DNA of 43,172 bases from Planctomycetota bacterium (GCA_003576845.1 QEVJ01000038.1:1-43172); one strand, 5' to 3'; positions 3,294 through 5,962 are shown, counted from the first letter of the stretch. The notes: generated by a model not told the origin, from the sequence alone. Program-made: numbers and translations.

Positions 3294-4007
3294 TCATTCA
3301 TCGGCCAGGGAAAGTCGCAACATGTAGAACATCGACCGCCGCATCGTGCGAACCTTGGAACGCCAGGTGGCCGCCCAGTTCGAGACGCCGTATTGCCGCG
3401 GCGGGAACTTCACCGGAAACGCCTCGACGCGCCAGCCGTGCCGCTTGGCCTTGTACAGGACGTAGACGTCGAAGTTGAAGTCCTTCGGCGGCCGCGTGAG
3501 GTACACGAGCAGGTCGCGGTGGAACAGCTTGGGCTGGGCGTTGATCTCGTACATCCGCATCCAGAAGAACAGCGACGAGAGCGTTTGCATCGACCAGGAG
3601 ACGAACTGCTCGCTCCAGCGCCGGCCGAAACGCTGGCCCTTGATGAGCGTCCGAGTCGGATCGGGTGAACGGCGGTAGATCGACAGCGCGCGGAACACGT
3701 CGCCGGGATCGGTCTGCATGTCGGCGTGCGACCAGCAGAGGAGCTCGCCCTCGGCCGCTTGCAAACCCGTGTACAGGCCGTGGCCGTAGCCTTGATTGAT
3801 TTCGACGCGAACGCTGCGGGCGAACTTGTAGTCCTTTAGGAGGCGTTCGAGGACGCGCGGCGTGTCGTCGGTCGAACCGTTGTCGACGAGGATCAGCTCG
3901 AAGTTCTCGCCGGCGCCGACGTGGGCGTAGCGGTCGAGAATCGCCTGAAGACCGCGCGATTCGTTGTAGCAGGGGAGGATGACGGACAATTCAGGAGAGC
4001 GCGACAT
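3294..4007 (-). CDS. Family 2 glycosyltransferase (polyprenyl-P sugar type)
   Basis: This 237-residue GT-A fold enzyme is probably cytoplasmic and membrane-associated. ELSVILPCYNESRGL opens the nucleotide-binding fold, LILVDNGSTDDTP follows, and WSHADMQTDP is the DXD-like metal/donor segment (DADxQ-DP type). That pattern resembles dolichyl/undecaprenyl-phosphate sugar transferases (DPM1/ArnC/GtrB-like). There is no C-terminal transmembrane hairpin, so it is the short soluble-type form. The ATG at 4007 begins immediately before the strand-1 motif; reading further upstream gives an Arg/Pro-rich non-native stretch that overlaps araD. It is the third gene of a likely operon after the GtrA-epimerase fusion and araD, which suggests it builds a polyprenyl-linked sugar for GtrA. 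Donor and acceptor cannot be read from the sequence. Confidence 0.88.
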   Translation of the reverse strand: MSRSPELSVILPCYNESRGLQAILDRYAHVGAGENFELILVDNGSTDDTPRVLERLLKDYKFARSVRVEINQGYGHGLYTGLQAAEGELLCWSHADMQTDPGDVFRALSIYRRSPDPTRTLIKGQRFGRRWSEQFVSWSMQTLSSLFFWMRMYEINAQPKLFHRDLLVYLTRPPKDFNFDVYVLYKAKRHGWRVEAFPVKFPPRQYGVSNWAATWRSKVRTMRRSMFYMLRLSLADE

Positions 4008-4017
4008 GACGGAGCGG

Positions 4018-4046
4018 GAGGTTGGAGGTTGGAGATTCGGGAGGAG
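4018..4046. repeat. Heptanucleotide array, GAGGTTG unit
   Basis: Two exact GAGGTTG units are followed by degenerate GAGATTC and GGGAGGA units, filling the spacer between the araD stop and the glycosyltransferase start. Its inverted counterpart is at 4714-4753, on the other side of araD. Confidence 0.75.
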
Positions 4047-4048
4047 CG

Positions 4049-4708
4049 TCACGCCGCTTTCTTTTGGCCGTATCTTGTGTGATAGCGGGTGTGGTATTTT
4101 TCGGCGGCTTCGATCGGGAGCATTTGCGGTTGGCCGATTTGCAGGCTGAGGTGGACCGTCTTGGCGACGTCTTCGGTCATCACCGCGGCTTTGAATGCCG
4201 CGGCGGCGCTCGGTCCCCAGGCGAACACGCCGTGGTTCGCGAGCAGAATCGCCGGGGCGCGGGTTCTGGCGGCGAGGATCGAACGGCCGAGGCTTTCGTC
4301 GTCGCATTCGGCGAAGTCGGCGCAGGGGATTTCGGAGCCGAACTCGTCCGCGATTGCAGTAAGGCACAATGGAATCGGTAGATGGCACGCAGCGAACGCG
4401 GTCGCGTAGTTGCTGTGCGTGTGCACGATGCCGCGGACGCCTTCGAGATGACGGTAAAGAAACAGATGGTGCGGCAGATCGACGCTGGGCCGGAGCTTCG
4501 AGCCGGTGACGCGGCCAGTGGCGAAGTCGACCTCGACGAGCATTTCGGGTGTGAGCTTCTCGTAATCGACGCCGGACGGCTTGATGACCACGAGGCCGGA
4601 TTCGGGATCGAAGCCGCTGGCATTGCCGGAGTGCATCGTCACTAGACCCGCCAGAGGCAAACGGCGGTTCGCCTCGCAAACTACTTCGCGCAATTCCACA
4701 ACCGACAT
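4049..4708 (-). CDS. araD: AraD-type L-ribulose-5-phosphate 4-epimerase / class II aldolase
   Basis: This class II aldolase-fold enzyme (219 residues, the usual length) is closest to L-ribulose-5-phosphate 4-epimerase, which interconverts L-ribulose 5-P and D-xylulose 5-P. Visible motifs are SGNASGFD and KPSGVDY (phosphate/substrate loops), Asp77 in PSVDLPHH, metal ligands His96 and His98 in HTHSNYAT, Asp121 in IADEFG, the third metal ligand His159 in LLANHGVFAWG, and a C-terminal RYGQ. By comparison with E. coli AraD (from memory), Asp76, His95, His97, Asp120, His171 and the C-terminal Tyr all have counterparts. Fuculose-phosphate aldolase is the alternative, but Asp121 and the Tyr tail favour AraD. 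No araA or araB is nearby, so a role in arabinose catabolism is not supported. The gene lies between two inverted heptamer arrays. Confidence 0.88.
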   Translation of the reverse strand: MSVVELREVVCEANRRLPLAGLVTMHSGNASGFDPESGLVVIKPSGVDYEKLTPEMLVEVDFATGRVTGSKLRPSVDLPHHLFLYRHLEGVRGIVHTHSNYATAFAACHLPIPLCLTAIADEFGSEIPCADFAECDDESLGRSILAARTRAPAILLANHGVFAWGPSAAAAFKAAVMTEDVAKTVHLSLQIGQPQMLPIEAAEKYHTRYHTRYGQKKAA

Positions 4709-4713
4709 AACAC

Positions 4714-4753
4714 CGACCTCCCTAACCTCTAAGCGCTAACCTCCAACCTCCCG
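4714..4753. repeat. Heptanucleotide array, CTAACCT/CCAACCT unit
   Basis: Degenerate 7-base units (CTAACCT twice, CCAACCT, GACCTCC) fill the spacer between the araD start and the stop of the upstream gene. CTCCAACCTCC is the exact reverse complement of GGAGGTTGGAG in the array at 4018-4046. Confidence 0.75.
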
Positions 4754-4756
4754 CAA

Positions 4757-5962
4757 TCACGCCGCACGGCGTTCGTATTTTGCGCCGGTGCGCAGCAAAT
4801 GCGCTACACCGATCGGGTTCTCTGCTTTGAGCACGGCCGAAGCCGCGACGATGTATTTCGCCGGGACGCGGCTAACGTTTGTTTCTTTGACGCCGCCGTC
4901 GAACATCACGTCGAAGCCATAGCGGGCGCGAAGCCGGTCGAGCGTGCCGGCGACTTCGATCGCTCTCGGCGACATCGTCTGGCCGGAGACGCCGGGCTGG
5001 CGGATGCCGAGGACCACGACGAAATCGACATGAGGCAAGTACGGCACCAGCGCGGCGATCGGAATGCCGTCGCGCCACACGAGGCCGACGCGCTTCTCGC
5101 GCTCGCGGCAGGCGTAGATCAAGTCCCACAGATCGTCTTGCGCTTCGACGTGGAACAGATACCAGTCGACGCGGTCCCAAGTCTCGTCGGCCCAGTGGCG
5201 CGGGTAGTGCGACATGACGTGCAGCGACACCGGCACGTTCGGCCAGAGCGCGCGGACTTCGTCGAGCACGTCGAGGCGAACCGGCCAGGCCGTCGGAAGC
5301 ATCGTTTCGTCGATCAGGTCCACGTGGACGTGATCGCAATTGCGGCCCACGCGGCGGTAGATTTCGGGCACGTCCTCGGCTTCGTGTGCATAGACCGCAA
5401 TGCCGAAGTCGCGGGCCATGTCGAACGTAAAGCGGCGGTGGAGCGAGTACCCGACGATGAACAGCACGCCGGCGGTGATGAGCCGCAAAAGTCCATAGTG
5501 ATCGCCGACGACGAGCGCCGCCGAGCGGACGACGGCCATGTTGAGCGCGAAGGAAAGACCGGAGATCGCCGCGAACCACCCGAACGTGCGGACGAGATGT
5601 TCCCAGGGGACGCGGAAGTTGACGGCCGCGTTGAGCACGAAGCTCACCGACATCCCGACGAGAAAGGCCATCGTCGACGCGGCGGGCCAACTCCACGCTT
5701 TCGGCCAGACGTACCGGATGAGGGCCAATTCCACGAGGATCGACGCGAAGCCGATGAGCGTGAAACAGGCGAGATAGCGATAACGGTAGACGAGGTACGT
5801 CCAGCCGCCGTGGCGGAGGGCGTCGAGAGCCGACCGGGCAGTGGAATTCGAGGCCGGCGTTGAGCCAACCGCCCGGCGCATCGCCTCAGTCGCGCCGGCG
5901 TCGCTAGCGGCGCGCCGCGGGTCGCGGTGGGCGTCGATCTGATTCAAAACGCCGCCATCCAT
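4757..5962 (-). CDS. GtrA-like membrane domain fused to ribulose-phosphate 3-epimerase-like domain
   Basis: This 401-residue two-domain protein starts with an N-terminal tail and then a GtrA-like region (about residues 62-180) with four hydrophobic helices; typical features are the first helix FTLIGFASILVELALI, FVLNAAVNFRV after helix 2, and the final HRRFTF. About residues 186-397 form a TIM-barrel domain of the ribulose-phosphate 3-epimerase type. HVDLID supplies the His and Asp equivalent to RPE His35/Asp37, LHVMSHYP the second His, FHVEA the usual strand, and FDGGVKETN the second catalytic Asp; the phosphate-binding end reads VAASAV. The conserved catalytic set suggests an active epimerase tethered to a flippase-like domain. 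The ATG at 5962 is preferred because the longest frame would begin inside the terminator of the upstream gene; ATG 6037 and ATG 5881 are alternatives. It is the first gene of the operon with araD and the glycosyltransferase. I recall no characterised protein with this architecture. Confidence 0.83.
   Translation of the reverse strand: MDGGVLNQIDAHRDPRRAASDAGATEAMRRAVGSTPASNSTARSALDALRHGGWTYLVYRYRYLACFTLIGFASILVELALIRYVWPKAWSWPAASTMAFLVGMSVSFVLNAAVNFRVPWEHLVRTFGWFAAISGLSFALNMAVVRSAALVVGDHYGLLRLITAGVLFIVGYSLHRRFTFDMARDFGIAVYAHEAEDVPEIYRRVGRNCDHVHVDLIDETMLPTAWPVRLDVLDEVRALWPNVPVSLHVMSHYPRHWADETWDRVDWYLFHVEAQDDLWDLIYACREREKRVGLVWRDGIPIAALVPYLPHVDFVVVLGIRQPGVSGQTMSPRAIEVAGTLDRLRARYGFDVMFDGGVKETNVSRVPAKYIVAASAVLKAENPIGVAHLLRTGAKYERRAA

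Follow-up and report, generated by a model that had tools for sequence, protein, structure and literature searches.

Three adjacent genes at positions 3,294 to 5,962 of a 43,172-nucleotide stretch of DNA from a Planctomycetota bacterium (GCA_003576845.1 QEVJ01000038.1:1-43172; contig G000:C248, hereafter the window) encode a membrane GtrA domain fused to an RPE-type epimerase, an AraD-type 4-epimerase and a family 2 glycosyltransferase (GT2), and belong, by gene content in related genomes, to a larger conserved set of eight genes. The best-supported explanation of this set is a predicted surface glycosylation system of Gtr-like type in which a dedicated branch would supply the sugar nucleotide. 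The sugar would likely originate from a pentulose phosphate, since both epimerase families act on pentulose phosphates and keep their catalytic metal-site residues. On balance, we favor a single conserved pathway, encoded here at two separate loci, by which an uncommon sugar would be made, nucleotide-activated, put on polyprenyl phosphate and exported for incorporation into a surface glycan.

The composition of the set was evident from 10–20 kb of sequence around orthologs of the fusion gene, which was read for gene content. Thus, the recurrent operon of relatives contained genes for the fusion, the AraD-type protein, a 2H phosphodiesterase, a nucleotidyltransferase–histidine-phosphatase (NTase-phosphatase), a MobA/RmlA-like NTP transferase, a GtrA protein, a GDPD/PLC-like protein and a GT2. 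All eight families occurred within single operons, in an order that varied among relatives; in one genome (G474), the AraD-type protein was more divergent (40%) and encoded on the opposite strand. The genome that holds the window (G000) is of planctomycete type, 7.05 Mb in size and 99% complete. In this genome, the 2H, NTase-phosphatase, NTP transferase and GtrA genes were found together at a second locus (G000:C201, approximately 47,356–51,162), on a contig that stops 45 bp past the GtrA gene. In a sister genome (G008), these four genes come after a GT2 gene, the product of which has 89% identity with the GT2 of the window, and before a GDPD-like gene; therefore, the window holds one half of a split operon. 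At the second locus, a 653-residue protein with a C-terminal pretoxin-HINT domain is encoded just ahead of the 2H gene (G000:C201, approximately 45,217–47,175; L059:3218-5176).

Joint inheritance was also evident from the distribution of these genes. At 33–77% identity, the fusion recurred in 12 of the 246 genomes searched within the order, representing six families, and in two further planctomycetes outside the order, one belonging to a different family of the class and the other to a different part of the phylum. The NTase-phosphatase gene occurred in exactly the same 12 of the 246 genomes, a coincidence with a chance of 1/C(246,12), or approximately 1e-20, before correction for kinship. Kinship inflates these raw odds, yet carriers are spread over six families within the order, with two more outside it, and most genomes are without both genes. 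A chance neighborhood was rejected on the basis of these identical distributions across six families. Across 392 genomes sampled evenly from the phylum, those with the fusion were also those with the GDPD-like gene, the one exception being G000, where the contig ends 45 bp after the preceding gene. The possibility, raised in an earlier note on this DNA, that the fusion and its neighbors might not be conserved together was not borne out, as the fusion, AraD and GT2 genes recur jointly across planctomycete families. A search of plasmids for the fusion gave only ordinary RPEs, with approximately 30% identity or less over the RPE part.

The gene content and coordinates of the three-gene block, as given in the earlier note, agreed with open reading frames and with Pfam matches above cut-off. 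The fusion protein (P0001; 401 residues, positions 4757–5962, minus strand), the true start of which may lie up to approximately 50 codons further in, matched GtrA (PF04138) with 48.4 bits against a cut-off of 26.1 and Ribul_P_3_epim (PF00834) with 69.2 bits against a cut-off of 21.1. These matches define a GtrA membrane domain (residues 67–180, positions 5423–5764, minus strand) and an RPE-type (beta/alpha)8 barrel (residues 183–397, positions 4772–5416, minus strand). Both domains were present in 12 of 13 scanned orthologs, and the RPE profile was matched by all 13. An AF2 structure model built from the 13 orthologs had four membrane helices (62–85, 92–114, 120–152 and 156–178) followed by a full barrel of eight strands (185–373), with a mean pLDDT that exceeded 90 over most of the barrel. 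The fusion is therefore no assembly accident. The ortholog of one genome (G608, L048:9300-10583) kept the RPE barrel, while its N-terminal membrane part aligned poorly with GtrA; this is probably the single ortholog of the 13 to have lost its match to the GtrA profile.

Structural comparison placed the barrel nearest to solved RPEs (2fli, 3ovq, 5umf and others), with Z scores of approximately 26–27 and root mean square deviations (rmsd) of 2.0–2.1 over 207–209 residues, the best match being 2fli (Z 26.8, rmsd 2.1, 209 residues). D-allulose-6-phosphate epimerase ranked among the RPEs (Z 25.1), and 3-hexulose-6-phosphate synthase, keto-gulonate-phosphate decarboxylase and others scored clearly lower (Z of 20 or less). 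When the fusion barrels of the 13 orthologs were aligned with ten canonical planctomycete RPEs, the metal ligands H213, D215, H248 and D355 were invariant in the former and aligned with those of the latter, and M250, the Met after the second His, was also kept. A separate canonical RPE (230 bits) is encoded elsewhere in the G000 genome.

A complete active-site signature was found in the AraD-type protein (P0002; 219 residues, positions 4049–4708, minus strand), a class II aldolase-family 4-epimerase that matched PF00596 (Aldolase_II) with 158 bits. Residues D77, H96, H98, D121, H159 and Y213, placed by alignment to 1jdi except for the Tyr, which was assigned from the C-terminal YGQ motif (Y213-G-Q), were invariant in 11 orthologs. 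They correspond to the metal ligands and the catalytic Asp and Tyr of E. coli AraD (D76, H95, H97, D120, H171 and Y229), and the signature is of the epimerase rather than the aldolase type, with Asp where fuculose aldolases have Glu. The protein scored 250.6 against a cut-off of 251 for PRK06557 and 148 against 389 for TIGR00760, the araD equivalog. L-arabinose isomerase AraA was not found in the G000 genome, which makes arabinose catabolism by this AraD unlikely and favors a biosynthetic over a catabolic role.

The GT2 (P0003; 237 residues, positions 3294–4007, minus strand; PF00535, 78 bits) is without its own membrane anchor. A conserved H-A-D-[ML]-Q-T motif replaces D-x-D in this protein, and both this motif and a NAQP motif are common to its proteobacterial relatives. 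The GT2 and GtrA proteins are of the polyprenyl-phosphate-sugar synthase and transporter types. Membrane genes of the AZOBR_p60025 family (GT-C-like) often flank the operons of relatives and are also found in Azospirillum. Within the block, 48 bp separate the fusion from the AraD gene and 41 bp the AraD gene from the GT2 gene, all on one strand; upstream of the block lies a PEP-CTERM gene, and downstream of it a DUF1559-like gene in convergent orientation, both labels being readings of the sequence.

Among the partner proteins, the NTP transferase resembled nucleoside diphosphate (NDP)-sugar pyrophosphorylases. Thus, its GxGxRF...PKPL signature was kept and its top scores were to sugar-1-phosphate nucleotidylyltransferases; a weak IspD-type match was also noted. 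The C-terminal half of the NTase-phosphatase was clearly recognizable as a histidine phosphatase and closely resembled PhoE, CobC and phosphoserine phosphatase. The nucleotidyltransferase label of the N-terminal half, a weak assignment, came from a GS...DxD motif and one sub-threshold Pfam match (19.6 versus 21), and no separate structural match for this half was present among the matches listed, which were filled by those of the phosphatase half. The LigT-like 2H protein had both HxT-type motifs and resembled the DUF1045/TIGR03223 family, named after phosphonate operons. Because phosphonate operons with this family handle ribosyl cyclic phosphates, the 2H substrate may reasonably be guessed to be a pentose cyclic phosphate. 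The HR...E.D...H residues of the GDPD-like protein were conserved, and neither the GDPD-like nor the 2H family had a useful relative in profile searches of the PDB. Fusions of the 2H and NTase-phosphatase genes, which predict a protein with three activities, were seen in three families (L036:3869-6142, L048:5506-7647 and L061:30-2252). In another genome (G043, L035:6265-7734), the second GtrA was fused to a class I methyltransferase, which suggests that the lipid-linked sugar may be methylated in that lineage.

The pathway that we infer from gene identities, folds, conserved active sites and joint inheritance would, with regard to its chemical steps, their order and the pentose nature of the sugar, proceed as follows. 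The membrane-tethered RPE-type enzyme and AraD would reshape a pentulose 5-phosphate (D-ribulose-5-P, D-xylulose-5-P or L-ribulose-5-P) at C3 and C4, the NTase-phosphatase and the 2H phosphodiesterase would rearrange the phosphates of the sugar and the NDP-sugar-pyrophosphorylase-like protein would form an NDP-sugar. The GT2 would then move the sugar onto polyprenyl phosphate, one or more GtrA domains would carry the lipid-linked sugar across the membrane and a GT-C enzyme would consume it. More tentatively, the set may represent an undescribed pathway to a lipid-linked pentulose-derived sugar (e.g., D-xylulose, L-ribulose or an L-pentofuranose), made from pentose-phosphate ketoses via a nucleotide sugar, in which the epimerase-transporter fusion would couple reshaping with export and of which the same core, with a kinase and a phosphatase substituted, would occur in Proteobacteria.

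Several observations weigh against the pathway as drawn. The Ser of the beta-1 PSxL motif was gone from all 13 fusion copies, which have an AVYA-like sequence instead, and the Met of HxDxMD was replaced by Ile or Val in all 13, whereas canonical planctomycete RPEs had the Met in 10 of 10 sequences and the Ser in 9 of 10 (one with PALL). Moreover, the fusion scored 63.0 bits against TIGR01163, the rpe equivalog, far under the cut-off of 212.6. The epimerase had been described in the earlier note as catalytically intact, which held for the metal site but not for the substrate shell; from these comparisons, the latter is unlike that of a standard RPE. The substrate may differ as well, because the Ser and Met were lost in all orthologs and the equivalog score was so low. 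In addition, no isomerase or mutase for conversion of a pentulose to an aldose 1-phosphate was seen in the gene set, the roles of the GDPD-like and 2H proteins are not accounted for by a plain NDP-sugar route and no GT-C gene was identified at either locus of the G000 genome. The changed shell, together with a three-residue deletion ahead of the last strand that all 13 copies show relative to canonical RPEs, fits an alternative in which the overall system is the same (NDP-sugar, polyprenyl-phosphate-sugar and flipping) but the RPE-like and AraD-like proteins were recruited to other substrates, such as hexulose, tetrulose or modified-sugar phosphates, and the product is not a simple pentose. 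The AraD scores, just under the cut-off for PRK06557 and well under that for the equivalog, point the same way, as does a different class II aldolase in a related proteobacterial cassette (described below), which by its sequence has Glu where AraD has Asp. On the other hand, the RPE metal ligands and the complete AraD signature are invariant, and the nearest structures are enzymes of D-ribulose 5-phosphate and D-xylulose 5-phosphate, with Z of approximately 26 versus 20 for other phosphate barrels, yet D-allulose-6-phosphate epimerase is nearly as close. Recruitment to other substrates is rather doubtful, though it has to be taken seriously.

The presence of two phosphodiesterase-type families in one set, both with conserved motifs, and the weak IspD-type match of the NTP transferase could instead reflect a phosphodiester-linked substituent. 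The NTP transferase would then, as in CDP-ribitol, use the 5-phosphate to make an NDP-pentulose, and phosphodiesters would be trimmed or recycled by the GDPD-like and 2H proteins. This explanation is unlikely, given that the best matches of the NTP transferase are sugar-1-phosphate nucleotidylyltransferases, that a GT2 together with two GtrA domains suggests a polyprenyl-phosphate-sugar and that the conserved set has no teichoic-type polymerase. Ordinary sugar catabolism, with a GT2 nearby by chance, is suggested by the general standing of AraD and RPE as classic catabolic and pentose-phosphate enzymes. Such an explanation is highly improbable and already contradicted by the joint conservation of the genes in distant families, the lack of AraA, the separate canonical RPE and the fusion to a membrane GtrA domain; arabinose catabolism in particular was rejected from the lack of AraA and the joint conservation. 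The lipid-linked pentose pathway proposed in the earlier note, with its putative pentulose phosphate substrate and putative pentose product, gained partial support from that conservation, from the lack of AraA and from partners that fit such a pathway (the NDP-sugar-pyrophosphorylase-like protein, the phosphatase, the second GtrA and, beside the operons of several relatives, a GT-C-like gene).

Searching with the GDPD-like protein uncovered related cassettes on plasmids of Hirschia baltica, Azospirillum brasilense and E. coli (IncR), and a similar search of phages gave no match. The cassettes encode a class II aldolase, a tandem NTP transferase, GtrA, GT2, a PLC/GDPD-like protein, a membrane GT87-like/phosphoribulokinase fusion and a HAD protein. 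Identities with the planctomycete proteins were 40–45% for GT2, 48–51% for the GDPD-like protein, 37–40% for the NTP transferase and 34–39% for GtrA. In contrast with the planctomycete set, the cassettes are without the RPE fusion, 2H and NTase-phosphatase genes and have a kinase and a HAD phosphatase instead. The unusual kinase fusion (approximately 660–705 residues; L064:15576-17693, L062:15587-17686 and L063:9456-11438) joins a membrane N-terminal half, GT87-like in Azospirillum, to a phosphoribulokinase/uridine-kinase domain. The phosphoribulokinase-type domain may be a second, independent hint of a pentulose phosphate substrate. The Azospirillum cassette also has an AZOBR_p60025-family gene that scored above the curated cut-off ("cell surface glycopolymer formation"). 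In E. coli, the cassette is a 9 kb, surface-glycan type region of an IncR-typed plasmid (L063, NZ_CP145712.1, 6022–14984), found in 2 of 5426 complete genomes with 100% identity. No description of the proteobacterial cassette or of AZOBR_p60025 was found in the open-licence literature searched.

In agreement with the earlier note, which knew of no described pathway that combines these activities, no paper on the gene set was found in the same literature, and the known lipid-linked pentoses are made from phosphoribosyl pyrophosphate (PRPP) by other enzymes. Ketopentoses such as xylulose occur in several bacterial glycans (PMC8707391), and no biosynthetic route to these was described in the literature searched. 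A set of eight genes with intact pentulose-phosphate epimerase metal sites is a direct and testable candidate route to an unusual surface pentose, and it links planctomycete envelopes with little-studied cassettes on proteobacterial plasmids.

With respect to its parts, the fusion resembles the RPE family in fold and in all four metal ligands, and differs in being joined to GtrA, in the loss of the beta-1 Ser and one Met and in not being the housekeeping RPE. The AraD-type protein shares the full metal and acid-base signature of L-ribulose-5-phosphate 4-epimerase AraD (PRK06557 subfamily), and differs in its presumed biosynthetic setting, in a genome without AraA. Among known lipid-linked pentofuranose systems, mycobacterial decaprenyl-phosphate-arabinose (DPA; Rv3806c, Rv3807c, DprE1/E2 and Rv3789) and undecaprenyl-phosphate-linked ribofuranose and xylofuranose (undP-Ribf/Xylf) of Citrobacter start from PRPP via a polyprenyl-phosphoribose synthase, with epimerization on the lipid by DprE1/E2 or a short-chain dehydrogenase/reductase (SDR) enzyme and export by MATE or Rv3789 (PMC11127046). 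The Citrobacter authors were not aware of any epimerase from O-antigen side-chain systems beyond theirs and the analogous DprE1/E2 (PMC11127046). Points of likeness with these systems are a probable lipid-linked pentose, cytoplasmic epimerization, a GT-C end step and a small GtrA-like exporter (mycobacterial Rv3789), whereas the route predicted here would rely on nucleotidyl transfer and on ketose-phosphate epimerases. Polyprenyl-phosphoribose synthase, DprE and SDR epimerase were absent from the conserved operon families (the rest of the genome was not searched for them), and a PRPP-type DPA/undP-Ribf pathway was rejected, as the conserved set has no marker enzyme of such a pathway. The prototype of Gtr-type glycosylation has three components, a GtrA flippase, the polyprenyl-phosphate-glucose synthase GtrB and a GT-C Gtr enzyme (PMC11127046). 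The present set resembles it in pairing a GtrA membrane protein with a GT2 within a single operon, next to which several relatives have GT-C-like genes, and likely shares the polyprenyl-monophosphate donor. It differs in that the GT2 is without the membrane anchor described for GtrB, that a GtrA is fused to an epimerase and that the operon holds its own sugar-making genes, namely those for the RPE fusion, AraD, NTP transferase, NTase-phosphatase, 2H and GDPD-like proteins.

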